Of a stretch of 44,236 nucleotides of DNA, positions 3,660 to 19,538 are shown one piece after another (positions within the stretch are counted from its first letter, which is position 1; each line of letters begins with the position of its first letter). The notes beneath the pieces were generated by a model. That model was not told the DNA's origin and did not search any database. It was given only the letters and a program-made list of their open reading frames with translations. A program made the position numbers and the translations under genes. This DNA comes from Terriglobia bacterium (GTDB lineage: Bacteria > Acidobacteriota > Terriglobia > UBA7540), in assembly GCA_035712365.1 (NCBI GenBank), contig DASTAW010000024.1, forward strand, positions 1 through 44,236, written 5' to 3'.

Positions 3660-6278
3660 ATGCGCTGGTACGAACGGTTTTTCCAAAGAAAGCTCACCGA
3701 AAAGCGTCTCGACGCCGAGCTGCGATTCCACCTCGAGCAAAGGATCGCCGATCTCGTCGGCTCGGGCATGGCTCGGGAGGAAGCGCGTCGCCAGGCGCGA
3801 CTGGAATTGGGAGGACTCGACCAGGTGAAAGAAGAATGCCGCGATGTCGGCGGTTCACATATCATCGAAGCGTTCATCCAGGACATTCGCTACGGCCTGC
3901 GCCAGCTTCGCCGCAATCCGGGCTTTACCGCGATTGCCGTGCTCACCCTTGCGCTCGGCATCGGCGCGAACACGGCCGTCTTTAGTGTGGTGAATAGCGT
4001 TCTTTTGCAACCGCTCCCGTACCATGATCCCGAACGGCTGGTTTCCATCTGGCAAAGCTACCAAGGTTATACAGACGTTCCGGTATCCACTCCCAATGTC
4101 GATTCCTGGCGAACTCAGAACCGTGTTTTCGAGGAGATTGCTGCCTATCGAGTTCAAAGGAGTTTCACACTAGCGGGCCAGGGCGAAGCTCAGTGGCTTC
4201 AGGGAACGTACGTCACCGCAAACTTCTTTGGGACGCTAGGTGTAGAACCTCTTTTGGGCCGCGGGTTTGACAGCAGCGAAGACCAACCTGTAGCTCGGCC
4301 GGAGGTTATTCTAACCCACGCCCTCTGGGCCGGGGTCTTCCACTCAGACCCAGGCATTGTCGGAAAGATCATCGATCTCGATGGAAGAGGTTACACCGTG
4401 TTAGGGATCATGCCCACGGGTTTTCGCTTTCCAAGTTGGACCGACTTTTGGCTGCCCTTGGGCCAGATGGGCAAAGACGAGCTGACCAGCCGCGTCTACC
4501 ATCCCTTGAATGTGATTGCTCGCCTGAAATCAGGCGTGAACATACTACGGGCGCAGATGGAAATGACAACTATTAATTCCCGGGACCAACTCCAATACCC
4601 CAAGACGGACGAGGGATGGGGCGTGCAGGTTGTTTCGCTTCACGAGCAACTAGTCGGAACTGCACAGGAAGCATTGTTGATTCTGCTGGCAGCAACCGGC
4701 TTTGTGCTGCTGATCGCGTGCGCCAATGTAGCTAATCTGCTACTGGCTCGCGCTGCTGAGCGCCAGAAAGAAGTGGCTGTCCGTAAAGCCCTCGGTGCAA
4801 GCAGATCTCGCCTTATCCGGCAGATGCTCAGCGAAAGCATTGTACTGGCGCTCGCCGGGGGTGCGTTGGGGCTGGCTCTGGCAGAAGGCGGACTGAAACT
4901 GCTCCCCGCGTTGGGACAGGGGGCCATCCCACAGCTTCTCCCGATTCAACTCGATGCCAAGGTATTGGCCTTTACGCTGATCACGGCGTTAATGGCAGGG
5001 ATTCTCTTCGGGTTAGCACCGGCTTTGAGATCGGGCAGGTTGAATTTGGTTTCGAGTCTCAAAGCGACAAGTGAAGGTTCGACTGCGGGTTTTCGGTCAG
5101 ACTTTATCCGGAACCTTTTCGTAGTCACCGAGGTAGGATTGGCACTGGTTGTATTGATAGGGTCAGGTTTGCTCTTAAGGACCTTTCAATTCCTTCTAAA
5201 TGTTGATCCGGGGTTCGATGTCCACAATGTTCTGACGGCCAGGGTAACTTTACTTGACCCTCAATACTCTGCGGCTGGGCAACGGGAAATCTTCTATCGC
5301 CAATTGCTAAACAAGGTTAAGGAACTTCCGGGTGTGGAGGCCGCAGGATTCACCGACGTGTTGCCGCTAAGCGAAGAATCGAATTTCAAGACGCGATTTG
5401 CTGTTGAGGTCCACGCACTCAGTCCAGGCGAAACTTACCCCGCAGCGGAATTGCGTATTGTGTATCCTGGCTATTTCAAGGCACTGCGCATTCCTCTGAT
5501 TCAAGGGCGAGTCTTCACAAACGCGGATTTCGCTCGCTCTTCGGCGCCGCCAGTGATCATCAACCGCCGCCTGGCGGATCGATTCTTCCACGGCGAGGAC
5601 CCAGTAGGGAAAAAGATCAACGCCGGCCCCGAGGGACCCGCGCCGAGCTGGGTAAGGGTCATCGGGGTAATCGGTGACATAAAAGAGTTCGGCTTGGCTG
5701 GCCGCCCTAAATACGCGCTGTATTTCTGCGGGTCAAATGCGGAAATGTATTTGGTCGTAAAGATAGCTTCCAGTCCACTGAGCTACTCTGAACCCGTTCG
5801 GAGACTAATTACAAAACTCGATAAATCGGTGCCGGTATCTGACGTAATGACGATGCAGCAGAGGCTTTCCACGTCCCTCGCGCGCCGCCGCTATTCCACC
5901 GTGCTCCTGGGTGTTTTTGCCATTCTTGGCCTAACGTTGTCAGCAGTTGGGATTTCTGGTGTCATTTCCTATTCGGTCATTCGCCGCACGCACGAAATCG
6001 GCATTCGCATGGCGCTGGGGGCGCAGAAGAGCGACGTGCTGACGATGGTCGTGGGGCAGGGGCTCCGGCTGGCTCTGATCGGCGTGGCGATTGGCATTGC
6101 CGCGGCGCTGGCGGTGACGCGCTTCTTATCGAGCATGCTCTATGGCGTCAAGCCCACCGACCCGCTCACCTTCGTTGCGGTCTCGCTGATCCTGATCGCC
6201 GTGGCGCTCGTGGCCTGCTATATCCCTGCCCGCCGCGCGACAAAAGTCGAGCCGATGGTGGCCTTGAGATACGAGTAA
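3660..6278 (+). CDS. ADOP-family duplicated ABC permease (MacB/FtsX-like)
   Basis: 872 aa inner-membrane protein. An N-terminal acidobacterial segment (about residues 1-75, [20 protein letters not shown]) is followed by a first transmembrane helix at about 90-112, a MacB-type periplasmic domain, a three-helix FtsX permease unit at ~335-440, then a second periplasmic domain and a C-terminal FtsX unit at ~750-870 ending in the family signature [11 protein letters not shown]. These 'orphan' permeases usually have no cognate ATPase gene next to them, and none is seen here. The role is probably mechanotransmission or export of an unknown substrate, under the adjacent PadR regulator. The central part (about 4030-5860) looks less GC-rich than both ends, suggesting mosaic origin. 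Confidence 0.92.
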
Positions 6279-6280
6279 GG

Positions 6281-6412
6281 CAGTGGTTAGTGGTTAGTGA
6301 TGAGTGGCGAGTAGCAGGTGCCGGGCCAACGGCGGAAGTCGGAAATTGGAATTAGGAAGTCGGGGCGGAGCAAACCCATTTCCTACTTCCTACTGCCCAT
6401 TTCCGCTCTTGC
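6281..6412. repeat. Low-complexity and inverted intergenic repeat
   Basis: It starts with CAGTGGTTAGTGGTTAGTGA just after the permease stop codon. It continues with GGAAGT/GGAATT-type words (about 6334-6365) whose near-complement (TTTCCTACTTCCTACTGCCC) follows at about 6380, so the region could fold. It separates two convergent genes and may double as a weak transcription end, although no T-run is present. Confidence 0.55.
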
Positions 6413-6415
6413 TGG

Positions 6416-6736
6416 CTACTCGGAGCGGCCGTCGAGGTTCAGCCGGACGGACGGCGTGGCCGGGGGCTTCTTCCGCAGCCGCACCTTGGGATTGAGGCAT
6501 TCCAAAAGCAGAAGGAAGAACGTGGTGAACATATAGACGAAGGCGATGATCTCGAAAGCGCGGCCTTGCCGGGCGAGCACGAACAGGGGCGCCATGATTG
6601 GAGCAAGCAGGACAGACCGCGGAGGCTTCATTTCCAGCCTTGCATGGCAATGAGGGCACGCGAGGTGAGTCCAGGCATCCAGGTTGAGAAAGAACGGCGT
6701 CCGCACACTGTGATTGCAAACGGGGCATGTTGCCAT
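6416..6736 (-). CDS. Small zinc-ribbon protein with two membrane helices
   Basis: 106 aa from the ATG at 6736, chosen because GGAAGGTGG lies just upstream; longer in-frame starts would add an unlikely N-terminus. Two CxxC knuckles (CPVC at 4-7, CPHC at 27-30) form a treble-clef or rubredoxin-like zinc ribbon. Two hydrophobic segments follow (about 43-56 and 61-79), then a basic tail. This is a known architecture of uncharacterised small membrane proteins. No function can be assigned. It is transcribed convergently with the permease. Confidence 0.6.
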   Translation of the reverse strand: MATCPVCNHSVRTPFFLNLDAWTHLACPHCHARLEMKPPRSVLLAPIMAPLFVLARQGRAFEIIAFVYMFTTFFLLLLECLNPKVRLRKKPPATPSVRLNLDGRSE

Positions 6737-8721: not shown

Positions 8722-10626
8722 ATGGCGCCAGAAAAAGCGCCACAGATCCAACTGTTGTCGCACGAACCCCGCCGCCAGGCGCTACGGGGTGGCCTCGCCA
8801 CTCTGTTCAGCAGGGCCCCGTCGCTAAAAAGCACCCCCCTAAACGGCCACAACGGCAATGGCGCCATCCATAAGCCGCCTCAAATCAGTCTGCTGGCGCA
8901 TGAACCTCGCCGCAAGGTCATTACCGGCGGCCTGGCCGCGCTGCTCCGCAAACACCCCGTGAGTTTGGCGGACTTTCACGAGGGCGCCTCAGTCAACGGC
9001 CACCGCGTACCGGGATTCCGGCTGTTGACTCACGAACCGCGCCGGCAGGCTATCCGTAGCGGGTTCAAGTCCCTGTTCTTGAAGGATCCGCCACCCCAGG
9101 AGCTGGTTGTTGGCCGGCAGGAGGTGGGGAAAGGCGGCCCGAAATTCACTGCCTTTCTCACCTCGTGCATGATGCACTTTTCGATTGTGTTTTTCCTCCT
9201 CGAGGTGCCCTTCTTTTTCCTGCTGCCGCGTCCTGCCCAGACAATCAAGCTGCCCCAAATTGTCTACGAGTTTCATGAGATTGAATTACCGAAGGACCTC
9301 CCGTCTGTAAAGCCGCCGGGCCCGGGCGGCCAGCCGGGAAGGGGGACCCACCCCGAGAAGGCTCCAGCGAAAGGCAGCAGCGCTTTTCACCACAGCGCCA
9401 CGGTGGTCTCAAACCCGCCCAACCCCGACAATAATTTCCAGACGATCATTCAGCCGCATGTAAACCCGGCCCAGAAGCTCGACATCAAACTCAAGCTTCG
9501 TCTGCCCAACGTGGTGCTCGGAGGCTCGCTGCCGGTTCCCGCCCCTCCGGCTGTGCCGCCTCCACCTCCGATGAAGCTGACCGTGCCGCCAACGCTGAAA
9601 TCTCTGACGATTCCCAAGACTACGGTGGTTTCTGTCACGCCGCCGGACCTCACCATCCCGGCAGCGGACATGCCCAACATGCCGGCAATTCCAGTTCCTC
9701 CGCCGCCTCTGCCGCCGCTGGCGCAGAGAAAGGATTTACCGAAGAACCTTGATCTTACCGCCATCGCAACCCAGGGGATGGAGGCCACATCAAACGGGTC
9801 AGTCACCAGCCTGCTGTCGCTCAGCCTAAATCCCGGTCCGCCGACGGACCAGCTTAAAATCCCTGCTGGAAATCGCTATGGGGCCTTCACCATCTCTCCT
9901 GAAGGCAATCATGCCGGAGCGCCCAATGGGAACTCCGGCGGCAGCGCCACAGGCGGCTCCGGAGGCCCGGGCAGCGGAGGCGATGCCAGCACCGGCGTGG
10001 GATCAGGTACGGCGGGCGGCGGTGGTGGCGGCGCCGGAGTAGTGAACGGACTGGGAGCTTCGACAACCGGTAATCCAGGCACCGCGGGCGCCGCCGGCGA
10101 TGCCGCTCTTTCCGCGGCTGCCGTGGCAAAACTCATCTACCCCATCCTGCGCGCCCCGCTGAAGAACCGCTTCGCCATGGTGGTGACCGCCGGACCGCAG
10201 GGCGGCGGCGGCCTGCACGTGTTCGGTGTCCTCAAGGGTGAAAAGATCTATACCATTTTTTTGCCGATGCCGCAGCGGAACTGGATCCTTCAATACTCGA
10301 TGATCAATGATCCGAACGCACAGCAAAAGCCCCAGCACAACGGCGTCACGCTACAGGTGGACTTCGGCGTTGTGCCGCCCGCCGTGGAAGAGCGCTTCGA
10401 TTTCCACCGCCCTGCTCTCACCGCCGAGCAGAAACAAAAAATGATCATCCTGCACGGATTCATCGCCGCGGACGGCTCGGTGGAACGGGTGACGGTCTAT
10501 CGTGGAGTTGAAAGCCTCGCGGACCGGGCCGCCCGCGCTGCGTTTGAGAAATGGAAGTTCCAGCCGGCCGTCTGGAGCGGCAAACCGATCCTAATTGAAA
10601 TCCTCCTGGGAATTCCGCTGAGCTGA
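8722..10626 (+). CDS. TonB-like energy transducer with three N-terminal HEPRR repeats
   Basis: 634 aa. The cytoplasmic N-terminus holds three copies of a motif LLxHEPRRxxxxxGxxxL (HEPRR at residues 14-18, 60-64 and 104-108). One transmembrane helix follows at about 143-168. The periplasmic part has a proline-rich stretch (about 280-345), a glycine-rich stretch (about 385-455), and a C-terminal TonB_C-like domain with the typical GxV..V.v.rg...L..aA..A...WkF.P pattern at about 575-625. The protein is far longer than E. coli TonB (239 aa), and the N-terminal repeats are not part of TonB as known. It could power outer-membrane transport or link a cytoplasmic signal to the envelope. No exbB/exbD is adjacent. 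Confidence 0.75.
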   Translation: MAPEKAPQIQLLSHEPRRQALRGGLATLFSRAPSLKSTPLNGHNGNGAIHKPPQISLLAHEPRRKVITGGLAALLRKHPVSLADFHEGASVNGHRVPGFRLLTHEPRRQAIRSGFKSLFLKDPPPQELVVGRQEVGKGGPKFTAFLTSCMMHFSIVFFLLEVPFFFLLPRPAQTIKLPQIVYEFHEIELPKDLPSVKPPGPGGQPGRGTHPEKAPAKGSSAFHHSATVVSNPPNPDNNFQTIIQPHVNPAQKLDIKLKLRLPNVVLGGSLPVPAPPAVPPPPPMKLTVPPTLKSLTIPKTTVVSVTPPDLTIPAADMPNMPAIPVPPPPLPPLAQRKDLPKNLDLTAIATQGMEATSNGSVTSLLSLSLNPGPPTDQLKIPAGNRYGAFTISPEGNHAGAPNGNSGGSATGGSGGPGSGGDASTGVGSGTAGGGGGGAGVVNGLGASTTGNPGTAGAAGDAALSAAAVAKLIYPILRAPLKNRFAMVVTAGPQGGGGLHVFGVLKGEKIYTIFLPMPQRNWILQYSMINDPNAQQKPQHNGVTLQVDFGVVPPAVEERFDFHRPALTAEQKQKMIILHGFIAADGSVERVTVYRGVESLADRAARAAFEKWKFQPAVWSGKPILIEILLGIPLS

Positions 10627-11481: not shown

Positions 11482-11575
11482 CTTGGGATCGCTCTTTCGA
11501 GACGGTGCCCGCGACGCAGACGGAATCCCGTCTGGCTTACTAAGGTAAGGTACGGGAACCGCTGCTGAGATACAC
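11442..11575 (-). ncRNA. tracrRNA for the type II-C Cas9
   Basis: Read on the minus strand. The transcript is predicted to begin at about 11575 with GTGTATCTCAGCAGCGG, which matches the CRISPR repeat with one difference and continues through TTCCCG, so it base-pairs with crRNA made from the minus strand. A bulge follows, then ACCTTAGT pairs with the crRNA start GCTATGGT (one mismatch, one G-U pair). Next is a perfect 7-bp hairpin, CAGACGG-GATT-CCGTCTG (11517-11534), in the nexus position. The end is an intrinsic terminator: GCGCCGTG/CACGGCGC (11474-11481 with 11451-11458) followed by TTTTTATTT. About 134 nt, a usual tracrRNA size. The 5' and 3' ends are inferred. Confidence 0.9.
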
Positions 11576-11619: not shown

Positions 11620-14600
11620 ATGACTGATCAAATTCCGCAGGAATACGTACTTGGCATCGACCTGGGCAGCAACTCTCTCGGCTGGGCCACCATCGAACGG
11701 CGGAACGGAAGCCCGCAGGGACTTTATCGCACTGGCAGCGTACCCGCCCTCGGGTCACGTGTCTTCGAGGCAGCCACAGAGGGAGATCGCCAGTCGGGAC
11801 AAGAGAAGACCCGCAACGTCAATCGCCGCCAAATGCGGCACCAAACCCGCCAGACGCGCCGCCGCGCCCAGCGGCTAAGGGATGTATTTCTGCTTCTGCA
11901 ATCCTGGGACCTCTTGCCCTTAGGCAATGCCAGAGTTCGCATAGAACGCCAGAAGATTCTGGAAGACTTGGACGTCAGCATCCTCAACTCTGAGTGGTTC
12001 AAGAAGATCGGTTCCGAACACGGCCATCCGCAGCGTGTCAAGCGTTGTGCTCAATGCCACCGACTGCGTGAGGTCATGCCCTATTCGCTGAGGGCGTCCG
12101 CGTTGGAAGAGAAGCTCGAAAAACATCATCTTGGCCGGGCGCTCTACCATCTCGCCCAGCGCCGGGGTTTTCTAGCAAATTCCAAGGTCGCGTCGAGGAA
12201 AGAAGACAAGGTCGGCACGGTAAAGAGAGGAATCAGCGAATTGGTCCGCGCTATGAAGACGGTGGATGCACCTACCCTAGGGGTCTATTTCGGCCGCCAC
12301 GTTACGCCCGACCGCGAGCGCATCCGGGGGCACTGGACCTCGCGAGAGGAGATGTATGAGCCAGAGTTAAAGCAAATCTGGCAGGAGCAGTCCCGGCACC
12401 ATCCGGACATTTTCAGCGCGGATAATTACAGGCGGCTGCGAGTGCTCGTCTTTGATCAACGCCCCTCATGGTTCGATCCCAACACCATCGGCCGTTGCGA
12501 TCTTGAACCGAGCCAGCGCCGCGCCCCGATGTACCTGCTCATCTCCCAGCGTTTCCGCCTGCTTCAACAGGTGAACAACCTCCGTGTCCTCCAGCCCGGT
12601 GAGTTGGACCGGCCGCTCACACCGGACGAGCGGCAGAAGGTGATCGATGAACTTGAGTTGAAGGGGGACCGAACCTTCGACCAGATCCGTAAGGTCCTGG
12701 CGCTTCCCGAAGAGCACAAATTCAACCTGGAGCCGCGAAAGCGAACGAAAAAGAAGAAGGGCGACCCTCCTCCACCCGACGTGGATGAAGAAGACAAGAG
12801 GTCCGGGAAGGCCAAGCTGAAGGGAAACCGAACCAACGCGGCCTTCTACAAAGTCTTCGGCAAACGCTGGCTTGCCATGTTGCCCGAAGAGCGGGACCGC
12901 ACCGTCGAATACGTTTACGCGTTCGAGAAGCCCGAGAAGCTGAGGGAAGCGGCGAAGCAAAAGTGGGGCCTTGAAGATGGGAAGGCAAAGAAGCTTTCGG
13001 AAATTTCATTCGAAACGCGGCCGGCAGGTCATTCTCGAAAGGCAATGAAGAAACTGCTTCCGCTTCTGGAAAATGGAAGGTTCTACGCAGAGGCTAAGCG
13101 TGAGATTTACCCGGAAAAGTTCCAGCCGTATCCGTCCCTCAAGCTCCTTCCGCCCGTCGAGTTTGCCGCCGATCCCACCTTTCACGAAAAGCGCTATCGC
13201 AATTGGCTCAGGAAAACGGGCGCGCTTCCTGAAGGGGGGCCCTTGCCGCCCGCCCTTGGCCAAATCCGCAACCCCGCCGTCATGCGCAGTCTAACGGAGC
13301 TTCGGAAGGTCATAAACGAGTTGATCTCTCGTTTCGGCAAGCCTGTGGAGGTTCACATTGAACTACTCCGCGAGCTTAAGAATCCCAAAAGCGTTCGCCA
13401 ACGCATCGATGAGGCGAGCAAGAGAAACCGCACCGCGCGGGATAATGCGGAAAAAAGGATTAAGGTCAAAACCGGCGACGAGCACCCGAGCGACGAAGAC
13501 ACAAGGAGAGTCCTTCTGTTCGATGAATGCAAGGATCGTTGCGTATACTGCGGGCAGGGATTTTCAGGTGACGGCATATATCGGGGCGGGCAGGACGTCC
13601 ACATCGACCACATCGTCCCCCGCAGCCTTTGCCCGGACAACACATTCATTAACCTCGTCCTTTGCCACACCCGCTGTAACAACGAAAAAGGGGCCAGAAC
13701 CCCCTTTCAAGCCTTCAAGGGCGATGACTTTGTGAAGTTGGAAATGAACGCCAAGGCGATTTTCGGGAGGACGGCGCGGCGCAAGCTGGCTCGGATCCTC
13801 ATGAACGACGAAAAGCTGAAAGAATTTCTTGAAAGATTCTCCGAACGCCAGCTTCGAGATTCCGCCTACGCATCAAAGGTGGCCGCAAAATACCTGGGAT
13901 ACCTTTACGGCGGAGTCTACGACGCGAGCAAAGAACAGCGGGTCATTTGCACGTCAGGTGAAGCGACCGCGGAACTCATGAAAGCCTGGGGCTTGTATAG
14001 TGTCCTCAACGATGGGCCCACTTCCAACGGTGGTGCGGTTAAGAAGAACCGAAACGACCACCGCCACCATGCCGTTGACGCCATCGCTGTTGCGCTCACC
14101 GGTCAAGGAACCATCCAGGCCCTTACCGCAGCCAGGTGGCTACGTCACGCTGTACTGGAATCTCCCTGGAACGATTTCGTAGATTCCGTCCGCACGGAAG
14201 TTGACGGAACCGTCGTGTCGCACCGAGCTTCCAAGAAAATCTCCGGCTCGCTCCACAAGGACACGATTTATTCCGCATTTGACCCGAACGCTCCTCGTGA
14301 GAACAATCCCGCGCGCCTCCCGCGCGTGCGGAAGTGGATCAACGAGCTCTCGAAGAAGGCGAAGGACATTGAGCATATCGCAGAACCGCCCAGAAAGTCA
14401 GGGAAGAAGGGGAAGGTAAGGGAGGCAATCGAGGACAAACTGCGGGAACTCGGGACGGACGATCCCGCCAACCTGCCCGACCCTCGCAGGCCGGAAAATA
14501 TCGACAAACTACCCCAGCTCCGGGGACGGCACGGCAACTCTGTTCCGATCAAGCGAGTAAGAGTCACGCAGGTCGTGAAAACTACTCACGTGGGGAGAGG

Positions 14601-15138
14601 CTTTCGGCGCAGGCTTGTCGAGCCAGGAAAGCCAGGGGCGAACCATCACTTCGAGATTTTTGCGGTCCTTGATCCGAAAAATCCGGAGAAGGAGTTGGGG
14701 TGGGAGAGCGATGATGTAGTCACATTGCTCGAGGTGCAGCGGAGAATAAGGGGAAAGAAGCCGATCATCAAGAAAGCTGGGTTCGGAGAACATACCGCGT
14801 TCAAGTTCTCCGTTTCACAGGGGGAAATCCTCGAACTCGACCGGCAGATTAAAGGTAAGCCTTTGCTGTCAGACAGGGTCCGCTTGACTACCGAAGAACG
14901 GAATTCCGGGCGGGTCAGGCTGGTTGTCAGGTCAATAAGCCAACAACAGGACGGCGGCAAGAAGATCGAGATGGTTCACGTCAACGATGCGCGTCCAAGA
15001 AGAGTAAACGAAGAAGGAAAGCGATCAAAAGTAAAGTCTGCCGACTGGGTCACCAAATCACCCGCGGAGCTATTTAAATGGCATGCGCGCAAAGTTGTAG
15101 TCAGCCCGCTTGGGGAGGTGACGGAAGCGCATGATTAA
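11620..15138 (+). CDS. cas9: Cas9 endonuclease, type II-C
   Basis: 1172 aa RNA-guided DNA nuclease. RuvC-I: GIDLGSNSLGW with Asp14. An Arg-rich bridge helix follows (about 62-95), then the recognition lobe. RuvC-II: VHIELLRELKNP with Glu581. HNH: DHIVPRS with Asp663-His664, Asn687, and a zinc knuckle of Cys641/644/682/686. RuvC-III: HRHHAVDA with His817 and Asp820. The C-terminal ~230 residues are the WED/PAM-interacting part. All catalytic residues are present, so it should cut both strands. There is no csn2 or cas4 nearby, which with the size and repeat type gives II-C. A Lys- and Pro-rich insert (about 372-400, KKKKGDPPPPDVDEED) interrupts the recognition lobe. It heads the operon with the four-helix gene, cas1 and cas2. 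Confidence 0.97.
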   Translation: MTDQIPQEYVLGIDLGSNSLGWATIERRNGSPQGLYRTGSVPALGSRVFEAATEGDRQSGQEKTRNVNRRQMRHQTRQTRRRAQRLRDVFLLLQSWDLLPLGNARVRIERQKILEDLDVSILNSEWFKKIGSEHGHPQRVKRCAQCHRLREVMPYSLRASALEEKLEKHHLGRALYHLAQRRGFLANSKVASRKEDKVGTVKRGISELVRAMKTVDAPTLGVYFGRHVTPDRERIRGHWTSREEMYEPELKQIWQEQSRHHPDIFSADNYRRLRVLVFDQRPSWFDPNTIGRCDLEPSQRRAPMYLLISQRFRLLQQVNNLRVLQPGELDRPLTPDERQKVIDELELKGDRTFDQIRKVLALPEEHKFNLEPRKRTKKKKGDPPPPDVDEEDKRSGKAKLKGNRTNAAFYKVFGKRWLAMLPEERDRTVEYVYAFEKPEKLREAAKQKWGLEDGKAKKLSEISFETRPAGHSRKAMKKLLPLLENGRFYAEAKREIYPEKFQPYPSLKLLPPVEFAADPTFHEKRYRNWLRKTGALPEGGPLPPALGQIRNPAVMRSLTELRKVINELISRFGKPVEVHIELLRELKNPKSVRQRIDEASKRNRTARDNAEKRIKVKTGDEHPSDEDTRRVLLFDECKDRCVYCGQGFSGDGIYRGGQDVHIDHIVPRSLCPDNTFINLVLCHTRCNNEKGARTPFQAFKGDDFVKLEMNAKAIFGRTARRKLARILMNDEKLKEFLERFSERQLRDSAYASKVAAKYLGYLYGGVYDASKEQRVICTSGEATAELMKAWGLYSVLNDGPTSNGGAVKKNRNDHRHHAVDAIAVALTGQGTIQALTAARWLRHAVLESPWNDFVDSVRTEVDGTVVSHRASKKISGSLHKDTIYSAFDPNAPRENNPARLPRVRKWINELSKKAKDIEHIAEPPRKSGKKGKVREAIEDKLRELGTDDPANLPDPRRPENIDKLPQLRGRHGNSVPIKRVRVTQVVKTTHVGRGFRRRLVEPGKPGANHHFEIFAVLDPKNPEKELGWESDDVVTLLEVQRRIRGKKPIIKKAGFGEHTAFKFSVSQGEILELDRQIKGKPLLSDRVRLTTEERNSGRVRLVVRSISQQQDGGKKIEMVHVNDARPRRVNEEGKRSKVKSADWVTKSPAELFKWHARKVVVSPLGEVTEAHD

Positions 15139-15431
15139 GGTCATTGCGAACCTCAGGTGTAAGGGCCAGAGGCTGATATCTCAGATCTAAAATTTGAGAC
15201 GCAGCCCGATTAGAGAAGATACGGAGGCGCATGACTGACGCAATCTCCGATCGCAAATTTGAGACGCGGCCCGTTTGGGAAGTTACCGAGACAGATGATT
15301 AAAGGTGTTGCAAATCTCAGGTGTGAAGGCCAGGCGCTGATATTTCAGATTTCAAACTTGAGATTTAGAATTTGAGATACGAAATTCGAGTTTTGAAATA
15401 GATTTCAAATTTGCGCAGCACAGGAGGGCCG
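15114..15431. repeat. Degenerate duplications of the cas9 3' end plus low-complexity words
   Basis: The stretch around the cas9 stop (ATGATTAAGGTCATTGCGAA from 15131) recurs imperfectly at 15295 (ATGATTAAAGGTGTTGCAAA) and stays similar for about 70 bases, through CTCAGGTGT and the GGCCAG and GCTGATAT words. A partial third copy lies near 15217-15240 (ATACGGAGGCGCATGACTGA). AAATTTGAGACGC occurs at about 15190 and 15255. From about 15345 the DNA turns into TTTGAGATT-type words. No gene is seen here; the four-helix gene follows with its own ribosome-binding site at 15421-15428. Confidence 0.6.
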
Positions 15432-15920
15432 ATGAAGTACGAGCGGTTCGAGCAATTGCCTGTCTGGCAGGCGGCCATTGAACTGGCGAGGCGGGTTTAC
15501 GCCCTCACCGGCAAGCCTCCGTTTCGCGGCCAGCGCAGCCTGCGTGACCAGATCGAGCGGGCGGCTGTCTCCATCTCCAACAATATTGCGGAAGGCTTTG
15601 AGCGCGGGACCACGCAGGAGCTGCTCACTTTCCTCTACATCGCGCGAGGCTCAGCGGGCGAAGTGCGCTCCATGCTCTGCCTGCTGGAGGCGCTGGAAGG
15701 TTTCGACAATCTCAAATCTGAAATCTCAGATTTGAAATCTCGGGCGGAGGGAGTTTCCAGGCAATTGCGCGGCTGGGCCGACTCGCTCCAGAACACCAAA
15801 ATCACCGGCCAGCGATACTTGAACGAAAAGACCCGCCGCGCCGACGAGCATAGGAAAGACCGGGATGAATTTCTAAACCAGCTCGAAGAGATTCGGCAGA
15901 GGGGAAAAGCCCATGAATGA
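15432..15920 (+). CDS. Four-helix-bundle protein (S23/IVP family) inside the cas operon
   Basis: 162 aa from the ATG at 15432, preceded by CAGGAGGG. The sequence matches the four-helix-bundle family named after proteins encoded in 23S rRNA intervening sequences: FEQLPVWQAAIELARRVYALTG, then LRDQIERAAVSISNNIAEGFERG, then LTFLYIARGSAGEVRSMLCLLE. A repeat-derived stretch NLKSEISDLKS (about 94-104) and a charged C-terminal helix of ~45 residues follow. Its stop overlaps the cas1 start (ATGAATGA, 8 bases shared), so the two are translationally coupled. Family members form helical oligomers, and the Avd protein of diversity-generating retroelements belongs to it, but there is no reverse transcriptase here. 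A role in spacer acquisition is suggested only by position. Confidence 0.88.
   Translation: MKYERFEQLPVWQAAIELARRVYALTGKPPFRGQRSLRDQIERAAVSISNNIAEGFERGTTQELLTFLYIARGSAGEVRSMLCLLEALEGFDNLKSEISDLKSRAEGVSRQLRGWADSLQNTKITGQRYLNEKTRRADEHRKDRDEFLNQLEEIRQRGKAHE
15713..15734. repeat. Perfect 9-bp inverted repeat inside the four-helix gene
   Basis: CAAATCTGA (15713-15721) and TCAGATTTG (15726-15734) flank AATC. The words match the non-coding repeats upstream of the gene (15165-15410), so an intergenic repeat seems to have entered the reading frame, encoding NLKSEISDLKS. Confidence 0.6.
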
Positions 15921-16887
15921 TCGAATCCTTGATTTCTCGGAGCGTCCGGCGCGGCTGAATGTACGCAACGGTCTGCTGGTGATTGATGTAGGGGAGCGCT
16001 CTGCGCTCCCGCGGGAGGGCGAAGCCCTCCCCTACGAGACAGATGGCCGCGACCCGGAGAGCGGCCTGCGGGCCCGCGTCGCGCAGGAACAAACCATTCC
16101 CCTTGCCGACATTGCCGTCCTGATCGCCGCGCACCCGCAGATCTCCTTTTCACACGCCGTCCTTTCCGGTCTCGCTGAAGCCGGAGGAATGTTCATCGCC
16201 TGCAACCAGAAACGCATGCCCTGCGCCATGCTGCTGCCGCTCGAAAACCACTCGACGCAAACCGAGCGATTCCATGCGCAGGCCAACCTGCCGCTGCCCA
16301 ACCGCAAACGCCTGTGGCAGCAGATTGTGAAGGCCAAAATCCTGGCCCAGGCACGGCTGTTGAAAGAACAGACCGAACAGGACTGGGGCCTTGAAATGCT
16401 GGCGGCAAGCGTCCGCTCCGGCGACCCGCAGAACATCGAAGCCCGCGCCGCCCGCATCTACTGGAAAAATCTTTTCGGAGAGGACGACTTCCGCCGCAAT
16501 CCCGACGGCGAGGGGCTGAACCCACTTCTCAACTACGGCTATGCCATCCTGCGGGCCGTGACTGCGCGGGCCCTGTGCGCCGCCGGTCTCCATCCTTCGC
16601 TCGGCATCCACCACCACAACCGCTATGACGCCTTCTGCCTGGCCGACGATGTGATGGAGCCTTTCCGCCCCATTGTAGACCGCGCCGTGGCCGCTCTCCG
16701 GGAACAGCGCGATGGAGACCCGGAGCTTGACCGCGAAACCAAGCGCGCCCTTCTGGAATCCCTGCTCGCGCGCTTCACTGCCGATGGGGAATCCAGAACG
16801 CTCTTTGACTGGGTCAGCAGGACCGCCCAGTCGCTCGCCGCAGCAATCGAAAGCGGCGATAAGAAACTGGAGATTCCGTTACTGTAG
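15913..16887 (+). CDS. cas1: Cas1 integrase, type II-C, with an in-frame palindrome insertion
   Basis: 324 aa, about 20-25 longer than usual type II Cas1. It opens with RILDFSERPARLNVRNGLLVID and continues at TIPLADIAVLIAAHPQISFS, both typical. Between them (about residues 26-56) lies an atypical stretch, GERSALPREGEALPYETDG, encoded by a REP-like palindrome. The catalytic metal site looks intact: Glu176 (IEARAARIYW), His233-235 (GIHHHNRYDAF) and Glu249 (ADDVMEPFRPIVD). With Cas2 it should integrate new spacers. Its start overlaps the four-helix gene, and its TAG stop lies in a second palindrome. The insertion replaces a surface turn between strands of the N-terminal beta domain, so function may be kept. 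Confidence 0.95.
   Translation: MNDRILDFSERPARLNVRNGLLVIDVGERSALPREGEALPYETDGRDPESGLRARVAQEQTIPLADIAVLIAAHPQISFSHAVLSGLAEAGGMFIACNQKRMPCAMLLPLENHSTQTERFHAQANLPLPNRKRLWQQIVKAKILAQARLLKEQTEQDWGLEMLAASVRSGDPQNIEARAARIYWKNLFGEDDFRRNPDGEGLNPLLNYGYAILRAVTARALCAAGLHPSLGIHHHNRYDAFCLADDVMEPFRPIVDRAVAALREQRDGDPELDRETKRALLESLLARFTADGESRTLFDWVSRTAQSLAAAIESGDKKLEIPLL
15988..16035. repeat. REP-like cruciform palindrome inserted in cas1
   Basis: GTAGGGGAG (15988-15996) pairs with CTCCCCTAC (16027-16035). Inside are two smaller hairpins, GGAGCGC-TCT-GCGCTCC and GGGAGGGC-GAA-GCCCTCCC. The outer-stem-plus-two-hairpins design matches intergenic palindromes elsewhere in the window. The insert keeps the reading frame. 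Confidence 0.8.
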
Positions 16888-16963
16888 CGGCGAGTTTATC
16901 TCGCCATCAGCCTACGTTGTGAACGCAAGGCTGGCGGTCCCGCCTCGGCGGGACCGCCGCTAC
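16884..16963. repeat. REP-like cruciform palindrome between cas1 and cas2
   Basis: An outer stem GTAGCGGCG / CGCCGCTAC encloses GGCGAG-TTTAT-CTCGCC and a perfect 12-bp hairpin (GGCGGTCCCGCC, loop TC, GGCGGGACCGCC). The TAG of the first arm (16885-16887) is the cas1 stop codon. The structure separates cas1 from cas2 and could slow transcription or stabilise the upstream mRNA. Confidence 0.8.
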
Positions 16964-16994
16964 ACACTTTTCAATAGACTCCTGGATTCACCTA

Positions 16995-17339
16995 ATGCCG
17001 CGCCATCAAGTTGCGCTCTCAGGATACCGAGCCATGTGGTTATTCGCCATGTTCGACCTGCCGGTCGATAAGCCCGACTTGCGTCGGGAGTATACGCAAT
17101 TCCGCGCCGCGCTTCTGAAACAGGGCTTCACCATGCTGCAGTATTCCGTGTATGTCCATTATGTGGCCAGCGAAGACAGCGATGAAGCCCTGCGCCGAAG
17201 AGTCCACGCAGCCCTGCCCAGCCACGGCCAGGTGAGGATCATCTCGATCACCGACCGGCAGTTTGAAAAGATGGAGATTTACGTCGGGAAAAAACGCGCG
17301 TCCGTGGAAGACCCTCCCATGCAGATGGGCCTTTTTTGA
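16995..17339 (+). CDS. cas2: Cas2, type II-C
   Basis: 114 aa. LSGYRAMWLFAMFDLPVDKPDLRREYTQFRAALLKQGFTMLQYSVYVHYVASE is the ferredoxin-like Cas2 core, with the conserved Asp of MFDLP near residue 20. RIISITDRQFEKMEIYVGKK is the second half. The start at 16995 keeps the LSGYR-MW lead-in typical of type II Cas2; an ATG at 17034 would shorten it by 13 residues. Only a weak ribosome-binding site is seen. Cas2 bridges two Cas1 dimers during spacer integration. It lies about 50 bases from the CRISPR array. Confidence 0.95.
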   Translation: MPRHQVALSGYRAMWLFAMFDLPVDKPDLRREYTQFRAALLKQGFTMLQYSVYVHYVASEDSDEALRRRVHAALPSHGQVRIISITDRQFEKMEIYVGKKRASVEDPPMQMGLF

Positions 17340-17391: not shown

Positions 17392-19538
17392 AGTGTATCT
17401 CAGAAGCGGTTCCCGGCAAACCATAGCCGTTCCCGCCTGTTACCCGCGCCACCGCTCAGTGTATCTCAGAAGCGGTTCCCGGCAAACCATAGCCGCTCTT
17501 GCGATATTCCGTCCATACGTATCAGTGTATCTCAGAAGCGGTTCCCGGCAAACCATAGCCACAAAACACAGGCAACGCGCAAGTCAATTAGTGTATCTCA
17601 GAAGCGGTTCCCGGCAAACCATAGCGCAATGCGTTTGCTGGCGCAGAAACCGACCAGTGTATCTCAGAAGCGGTTCCCGGCAAACCATAGCTTATCTACG
17701 CCAGCTCGCAGTGGAAGTCAGAGTGTATCTCAGAAGCGGTTCCCGGCAAACCATAGCCACGCCGTGTGGTCGCTAGCAAGTCGCTAGCAGTGTATCTCAG
17801 AAGCGGTTCCCGGCAAACCATAGCAGGTTAGGCTCCAGGGCGAGCGGCAATTCGAGTGTATCTCAGAAGCGGTTCCCGGCAAACCATAGCCCGCGGGCAA
17901 TGCGTACACCACCTTGTTCTAGTGTATCTCAGAAGCGGTTCCCGGCAAACCATAGCGTGAAGTGCTGATTGCTCGAAAGGTAACTCAGTGTATCTCAGAA
18001 GCGGTTCCCGGCAAACCATAGCTACATCCTTCACGATAAGTCAATCACCAGCAGTGTATCTCAGAAGCGGTTCCCGGCAAACCATAGCGCGCTCGTCATT
18101 GGCTTTATCGTGTTTATCAGTGTATCTCAGAAGCGGTTCCCGGCAAACCATAGCCGAATCCGCTGCGCGGCGGCGCCGAAGCCAAGTGTATCTCAGAAGC
18201 GGTTCCCGGCAAACCATAGCGCCAGCCACTTGACGGAGATGATAAAATCCAGTGTATCTCAGAAGCGGTTCCCGGCAAACCATAGCATGGCAATCGCCCA
18301 CTTCATAGCCGGTTAAAGTGTATCTCAGAAGCGGTTCCCGGCAAACCATAGCGTCATGATGGACATTCACGCGCAGGTCGAAAGTGTATCTCAGAAGCGG
18401 TTCCCGGCAAACCATAGCCCATCCGCGAGTATCAGCAGCGCTCGATGAGTGTATCTCAGAAGCGGTTCCCGGCAAACCATAGCGCTTTCTCCACTCCGCA
18501 TGCAGCGCTTTCAAGTGTATCTCAGAAGCGGTTCCCGGCAAACCATAGCGCCGACCTGGCGGCAGAGCGATCTGCATCGAGTGTATCTCAGAAGCGGTTC
18601 CCGGCAAACCATAGCCTCTTCATCGGACCACCCGGAACTGGTAAGAGTGTATCTCAGAAGCGGTTCCCGGCAAACCATAGCCCGCCAGCCAGAACGCCGA
18701 AGCGACTGAGAGTGTATCTCAGAAGCGGTTCCCGGCAAACCATAGCCCAACTGGCAGAACCTCGAAAATAACTTCGAGTGTATCTCAGAAGCGGTTCCCG
18801 GCAAACCATAGCGCATCATCAGTATTGAGCCTCGGGATGGCGAGTGTATCTCAGAAGCGGTTCCCGGCAAACCATAGCCGCTCCCCCATGATGCCCCGCA
18901 CTCGTGTCAGTGTATCTCAGAAGCGGTTCCCGGCAAACCATAGCGCGCTGAACTGCCGGACCGGTGCCTGCTGGAGTGTATCTCAGAAGCGGTTCCCGGC
19001 AAACCATAGCGGAGAACGATGGTTTACTCGACCCTTCTGAAGTGTATCTCAGAAGCGGTTCCCGGCAAACCATAGCATACTCCAGCCACACTCATCAATT
19101 GCTGAAAGTGTATCTCAGAAGCGGTTCCCGGCAAACCATAGCCTCGACCGCGCAGGCAAAACTCGATCCGAGAGTGTATCTCAGAAGCGGTTCCCGGCAA
19201 ACCATAGCCGAGGGAGCTGCTCGATCCTGACACCAGCCAGTGTATCTCAGAAGCGGTTCCCGGCAAACCATAGCGGATACGGCCTGGAGCCGACCATCGA
19301 GCAAAGTGTATCTCAGAAGCGGCTCCCGGCAAACCATAGCGGGGAACCCGGTATGCCGGCAACCCTGACGAGTGTATCTCAGAAGCGGTTCCCGGCAAAC
19401 CATAGCTCGGCCAACTCGACATTCACAGCCGCGCACAGTGTATCTCAGAAGCGGTTCCCGGCAAACCATAGCCGCTCTGCGATGGTTCAGGCAGCGTGAC
19501 GCTGTGTATCTCAGCAGCTATGGTTTGCCGGGAACCGC
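17392..19538 (-). CRISPR. Type II-C CRISPR array, 32 full repeats plus a rearranged terminal repeat
   Basis: The 36-bp repeat reads on the plus strand from AGTGTATCTCAGAAGCGG to GGCAAACCATAGC. Spacers are 30 bp, except one of 31 (before 17789) and two of 29 (before 18448 and 18711). The first repeat starts at 17392, the last full one at 19437. All look identical except the repeat at 19305, which has one T-to-C change at 19323. The tracrRNA anti-repeat shows that crRNAs come from the minus strand, where the repeat begins GCTATGGTTTGCC and ends GAGATACACT. That end holds a -10-like TACACT with TTGCCG 16 bases upstream, so each repeat may drive the next spacer, as in Neisseria. The degenerate end is at the right, so the cas2-proximal end is probably the newest. 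Confidence 0.97.
19503..19538. repeat. Terminal CRISPR repeat with an internal 20-bp inversion
   Basis: The first 15 bases (TGTGTATCTCAGCAG) match the repeat with two changes. The next 20 bases, CTATGGTTTGCCGGGAACCG, are the exact reverse complement of repeat positions 16-35, and the last base matches again. The element therefore keeps the 36-bp length with its interior flipped. One of the two changes (C at position 13) is shared with the tracrRNA anti-repeat. Confidence 0.85.

Follow-up and report, generated by a model that had tools for sequence, protein, structure and literature searches.

Introduction

Csn2 in subtype II-A and Cas4 in subtype II-B are adaptation accessories of type II CRISPR-Cas systems, and each of them marks a whole subtype.

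Genes of the IVP family (PF05635) have been reported among cas genes before. The text of Zhang, Doak and Ye (2013; PMC3936711) counts 18 of them in cas loci and names subtypes I-B, I-E, II-A and III-B, and the legend of Figure 6B in Altae-Tran et al. (2023; PMC10910872) includes the 23S rRNA IVP among novel adaptation-module associations. A resemblance between PF05635 and Avd is described in the text of PMC10053308. The name of the family comes from a location in the 23S rRNA intervening sequence, a location that the family models do not require.

Here we analysed a window (the whole stretch of 44,236 nt, from a Terriglobia bacterium) in which a type II-C operon carries such a gene between its cas9 and cas1. 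The initial annotation had put forward a II-C adaptation accessory as something not yet described, whereas IVP genes in cas loci, and with adaptation modules, were already in print in the sources cited above. As far as our searches of the open-access literature can tell, the II-C site is a new instance of this known neighbourhood. We consider it probable that a wandering helix-bundle gene has lodged in the operon, where it acts independently of CRISPR and has no specific role in the acquisition of spacers.

Results

The II-C operon and its additional gene

The following features make up the operon and its array:

11620-15138, + strand: cas9, 1172 aa (TIGR01865, E 1.5e-170), ending in GCGCATGATTAA, the former cas9/cas1 junction in relic form
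15422-15427: AGGAGG, ribosome-binding site of the bundle gene
15432-15920, + strand: IVP-family four-helix-bundle gene (the bundle gene), a complete ORF of 162 aa with an ATG start
15913-16887, + strand: type II cas1, 324 aa (TIGR03639, E 1.4e-79)
16995-17339, + strand: cas2, 114 aa (TIGR01573, E 1.2e-20)
17393-19472, + strand: CRISPR array with 32 repeats (35 nt each, allowing up to 5 mismatches) and spacers of 30-32 nt

The type II cas9, cas1 and cas2 together with the array are consistent with subtype II-C. No further clear gene of the operon is found in the list of ORFs of at least 60 aa, and Cas4 (PF01930) had no match in the window's genome (control matched in 8 of 14), both of which fit this assignment; Csn2 had no match in the genome, in a search that also matched none of the control genomes.

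The initial annotation had described a complete IVP gene with its own ribosome-binding site between cas9 and cas1, its stop overlapping the cas1 start by eight bases, and both observations hold. The gene matches PF05635 (E 7.4e-28, 97.3 bits against a curated cut-off of 33.8) and TIGR02436 (E 3.8e-26, 91.4 bits against 24), and its TGA at 15918-15920 overlaps the cas1 ATG (15913) by 8 nt. It sits in a protein-coding operon rather than in the 23S rRNA intervening sequence that gave the family its name. All four cas-linked copies that were found are intact, and pairwise dN/dS among them is 0.15-0.23, which identifies the bundle gene as a coding gene under selection rather than an ORF that arose by chance.

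An AlphaFold2 model of the bundle protein (24 sequences) has five helices at a mean pLDDT of 87.7, and the predicted fold is a four-helix bundle resembling XCC0516. This protein (2gsc) was the best Foldseek match (E 3.2e-5, TM by target 0.86) and the sole structure below 0.001, and was also matched by sequence (E 1.9e-11). BT_0352 (2rld) came next, followed more weakly by Avd (4dwl, E 0.1, TM by target 0.81; 8ub7, E 0.06), to which the bundle protein is about 12-13% identical; viral models gave weak Avd-like matches only. Going by these fold relatives, the bundle protein is probably a small helical oligomer, and by analogy with Avd it may bind nucleic acid.

Several other elements were observed around the operon. 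Just upstream of cas9, positions 11551-11574 of the window are complementary to the CRISPR repeat and are likely the tracrRNA anti-repeat. GC-rich palindromes occur at 15980-16035, in the variable N-terminal part of cas1, and at 16885-16994, in the cas1-cas2 gap (folding energy -47.7 kcal/mol), so that the operon appears to have acquired several repeat types. The protein encoded at 8722-10626 carries three related N-terminal repeats (DNA family D5, 8745-9038).

Occurrence of the bundle gene in cas loci

The Cas9 of the window was matched at E 1e-30 in 20 of 151 genomes (that of the window and 150 relatives). Among the 19 loci from other genomes, cas9 and cas1 lie on one stretch in 16, and two of these (G015 and G032) have the bundle gene; adding the window (G000) and a relic locus (G008) gives 4 of 18. 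A pattern-based scan with the window's Cas1 yielded 35 loci, with the bundle gene in one, which was G032 again. Three loci of that scan (L085, L086, L088) duplicate G013, G032 and G064, leaving 50 distinct loci, a set that includes distant loci without a subtype assignment and two (L100, L105) in which no cas9 was recognised. The bundle gene is present in 4 of these 50 type II loci, and the four come from a single bacterial family. A broader IVP profile, run over 54 type II locus records, gave no further case; we relied on it instead of earlier, narrow profiles, and it recovers all nine IVP loci of the window's genome, most of which were used in building it.

Within the family of the window, half of the eight readable cas loci carry the gene. 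The carriers (G000, G015, G032 and the relic G008) belong to three genera, the readable loci without it are those of G013, G018, G023 and G037, and the cas loci of G003, G024 and G030, interrupted by contig ends, were left out of the locus counts. The initial annotation had looked to retention of the gene in relatives that share the cas9; four of the eight family loci lack it, and none of the loci searched outside the family has it. The bundle gene is not a regular neighbour of cas1-cas2 across the subtype in the way of Csn2 or Cas4.

Cas1 is present in 119 of 396 genomes of the phylum. From the best 80 of these 119, ranked by the score of their Cas1 on one profile, we took a single cas1 locus each with flanks of up to 5 kb, and the resulting 708 kb held no IVP gene. 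The profile gives type II Cas1 low scores, so most of the 80 loci are of other types, and many of the stretches end at contig ends. At the density seen in the window's genome (9 per 4.67 Mb), about 1.4 IVP genes would be expected in these loci by chance, and therefore the zero excludes only a strong general link between IVP genes and cas1.

History of the cas9/cas1 junction

Three further features of the window bear on how the gene came to overlap cas1:

15203-15254, + strand: relic of an ancestral cas9-tail/cas1-head junction, by local alignment to relatives' junctions
15252-15302, + strand: second relic copy of the cas9 tail, belonging to direct repeat D4; it scores 38 against the tail of the window's own cas9, where shuffles reach at most 22
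15913-15920, + strand: octamer ATGAATGA, comprising the cas1 start and the bundle-gene stop, and the cas9 stop in empty-site relatives

In three family loci that lack the bundle gene (G018, G013 and G023) cas9 ends in CATGACTGA, and ATGACTGA there also starts cas1. Across 14 loci without the gene, the cas9 end reads ATGAnTGA in eight and ATGAnTAA in two, with neither form in G040, G047, G116 and G131. In the window, cas9 still ends in GCGCATGATTAA and the bundle gene ends in GCCCATGAATGA; G015 has a junction laid out like that of the window, with GTGAGTGA. The overlap with cas1 is retained in these two carriers, and has been lost in G032, where a gap of 90 nt separates the bundle gene from the GTG taken as the cas1 start.

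The segment at 15203-15254 aligned to the G013 junction, cas1 head included, with a local score of 51 (maximum of 300 shuffles, 33) and to the G018 junction with a score of 41 (shuffled maximum 26), while the score against the G023 junction, 23, did not exceed that of shuffled sequence (28). For the cas1 part of this relic junction the evidence comes from G013 and G018; the window's own cas1 head gave no match above chance in the region upstream of the bundle gene. The region between cas9 and the bundle gene also folds better than its own shuffles (z -3.2). Judged from these junctions, the 8-nt overlap is the one that cas9 and cas1 shared ancestrally, inherited from the displaced cas9 end. The simplest account would be a duplication of, or recombination at, the cas9/cas1 boundary, with the bundle-gene segment landing in the new space. 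The junction octamer flanks this segment on both sides, an arrangement that recombination between modules could also yield.

The same subfamily at other genomic sites

The bundle gene belongs to an acidobacterial IVP subfamily that is found well away from cas genes. Nine PF05635 copies are present in the window's genome, one of which, on contig C50, is 65% identical to the cas-linked gene and follows an RNA polymerase beta' gene and a small gene, before an amidase gene, in a setting common to six genomes. Subfamily members occur in 26 of the 39 family genomes at E 1e-15 and in 23 of 39 at E <= 1e-29; at the latter threshold they are found in 7 of 10 genomes with cas9 or its relic versus 16 of 29 without, which is no significant association with cas9 (Fisher p 0.48, counting G030, which has only a cut cas1 and cas2, among the 29). 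G018 has an empty cas site, yet holds an 80%-identical subfamily copy on another contig.

Among 20 scanned neighbours of non-cas copies, Pfam matches at 1e-8 were obtained for 18, the majority to metabolic or other housekeeping families; beyond the rpoC site they include GcpE, GMP synthase, Mur ligase, PFOR, acyl-CoA dehydrogenase and peptidase M3, among others, and the one defence gene is a GmrSD restriction enzyme in G023. Copies at the rpoC site have dN/dS of 0.07-0.15 in five of ten pairs, dS being saturated in the other five, and the G018 and G022 copies compared with the cas-linked ones give 0.08-0.14 (eight comparisons). Some non-cas copies are broken, for example those of G003 and G005b. 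According to the initial annotation, random occurrence elsewhere in the genomes would mark the gene as a passenger, and this is largely the picture obtained, with the subfamily at other sites in many family genomes whether or not they have cas9.

Divergence, trees and exchange apart from cas genes

Between G032 and G008, dS is 0.14 for the bundle gene, 0.52-0.57 for two pieces of cas9, 0.88 for cas1 and 0.77 for cas2 (bundle gene versus cas9, Fisher p 3e-6). The bundle gene is far more similar than its cas neighbours and has therefore been exchanged on its own. The subfamily thus combines unrelated sites with exchange apart from neighbours, as a mobile element does; no mobilising enzyme was seen. 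In two other pairs, dS of the bundle gene did not differ from that of cas1 (G000-G032, p 0.26; G000-G015, p 0.64). This parity speaks for long co-residence, as for a long-standing operon member, and lends some weight to a role in adaptation.

In the Cas9 trees G000 joins G015, in the Cas1 tree it joins G032 and G008, and in the bundle-gene tree it groups with G032 and G008 together with the non-cas copy of G018. The four cas-linked copies are not monophyletic in the best tree (0% of 200 bootstrap replicates), but the AU test does not reject a single clade (p 0.124 and 0.358), and we consider several independent captures into cas loci unsupported.

At the relic locus G008, as read partly by eye, the cas9 reading frame lacks its middle and holds a tandem expansion of 72 bp that includes a stop and of which 13 copies were found, cas1 begins at about residue 153, cas2 is shortened, and the array comprises two whole repeats and one that is cut. 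The bundle gene is intact there while all three cas genes are broken. The cas9 remnants show a dN/dS near 0.1, however, which makes the decay recent and says little on the gene's independence, and we set the intact copy aside as proof of it because the cas9 pieces still look constrained. The 72-bp expansion was observed in the N-terminal third of the Cas9 gene of both G008 (L165, about 5460-6623) and G032 (L043, 10841-11112), in the latter with at least 3 copies of the unit at a contig end.

Heptad repeats beside the subfamily

Two stretches of 7-nt periodicity lie at the bundle gene:

15337-15392, unstranded: imperfect 7-nt-period repeats upstream of the bundle gene (families D3 and D7)
15709-15740, unstranded: strict heptad repeat (ATYTSAR)n inside the bundle gene, coding NLKSEISDLKS

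The strict pattern occurs at about 18 separate places in the window's genome, and the only one at an IVP gene is that inside the bundle gene itself; the idea that heptad repeats mark IVP genes in general was therefore rejected. A looser repeat score was above zero beside three of the nine IVP loci of this genome (L005, L006 and L008). Against a null that includes coding DNA, and with G031 dropped as too short, this score reached p < 0.05 at 18 of 24 subfamily loci within the family of the window and at 2 of 13 outside it; the window locus alone, at p 0.087, is outside the 18. Comparing gap with gap gave 11.2 versus 1.3 per kb in the family (above zero beside the gene at 11 of 25 loci) and 6.7 versus 0.9 per kb at the 13 other loci (2 of 13), for a motif that was picked after the flanks had been seen, at loci that are related and of which several have no adjacent gap owing to the ORF calls. 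As a lead, towards how such genes move, 7-nt-period repeats seem to be concentrated beside subfamily genes (for example L198 in G028, L202 in G023, L196 in G022 and L151 in G000). Clusters of self-complementary heptad repeats were also observed away from PF05635 genes, in G000 at 171-189 kb of C15 and 8-18.5 kb of C17 (L216, L215).

Discussion

The results are best explained by a gene that occupies many unrelated sites and probably came to rest in this operon. Members of the acidobacterial subfamily would serve the host at those sites independently of CRISPR, and in a sub-lineage of one family the bundle gene would have arrived at the cas9/cas1 boundary. Since it ends on the octamer, it may pass translating ribosomes on to cas1, the part formerly played by cas9, and this hand-over could be what lets the operon tolerate it. 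An extended form of the proposal, which we regard as conceivable and yet doubtful, would join the subfamily genes and the adjoining self-complementary 7-nt-period repeats into one mobile cassette that inserts at the ends of operon genes, like 23S rRNA intervening sequences; the cas9/cas1 boundary would be one target among others, the hand-over to the next gene would be re-created, and the protein might then be recruited by Cas1-Cas2.

The suggestion in the initial annotation of a II-C adaptation accessory, a protein that works with Cas1-Cas2, for example in binding prespacers or the leader, like Csn2 or Cas4 elsewhere, now appears unlikely. Part of it stands, as the gene is genuine, intact and under purifying selection, is found at this one position in four loci, from three genera, keeps the overlap with cas1 in two of them and matches cas1 in dS in two pairs, and IVP appears among the adaptation-module associations in the figure legend of PMC10910872. 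However, the gene is patchy, being absent from half of the family loci; the subfamily is equally constrained at non-cas sites, coupling is lost across the 90-nt gap of G032, the overlap is ancestral, and the gene was exchanged between G032 and G008 without its cas neighbours. The array period is also similar where the gene is missing (65-66 nt in G018 versus mostly 66 in the window).

It is rather improbable that the sequence is kept as a translational relay, bringing ribosomes to the cas1 start irrespective of the protein's own function: the octamer overlap, its identity with the earlier cas9/cas1 coupling and a purine-rich stretch before cas1 would suit such a role, but a dN/dS of 0.15-0.23 reveals constraint on the protein itself, and G032 does without the overlap. 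That the protein partners a reverse transcriptase or retroelement in the manner of Avd is scarcely credible, for although the relation to Avd that the initial annotation mentioned is borne out as a weaker fold match (4dwl, 8ub7), the identity is low and the 98.9% complete genome has no match to a reverse transcriptase (PF00078; control matched in 3 of 14).

We return to the lodged wandering gene as the reading that we prefer. It provides a worked case in which the apparent marks of a designed operon component are all present, namely its own ribosome-binding site, an overlap and selection, and in which the overlap was nevertheless inherited from the displaced gene. This is a caution for surveys of CRISPR neighbourhoods, in which IVP genes have been listed. 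In addition, a single family with four loci that carry the bundle gene and four that lack it offers a ready comparison for effects on adaptation.

Among described proteins, the IVP/S23 proteins XCC0516 (2gsc) and BT_0352 (2rld) share the four-helix bundle (TM by target 0.77-0.87), from which the bundle-protein model differs by an extra C-terminal helix at residues 132-161. Avd of diversity-generating retroelements is alike in fold, but belongs with a reverse transcriptase of the kind for which the window's genome gave no match. The cases of PMC3936711 likewise place a PF05635 gene in cas loci; the subtypes that its text names do not include II-C, and it does not discuss the history of the junction. 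The association in PMC10910872 is similar in linking IVP with adaptation modules, its text giving neither subtype nor organism. Like Csn2 and Cas4, finally, the bundle gene stands beside cas1 in a type II operon, but instead of marking a subtype it is distributed patchily within one family.
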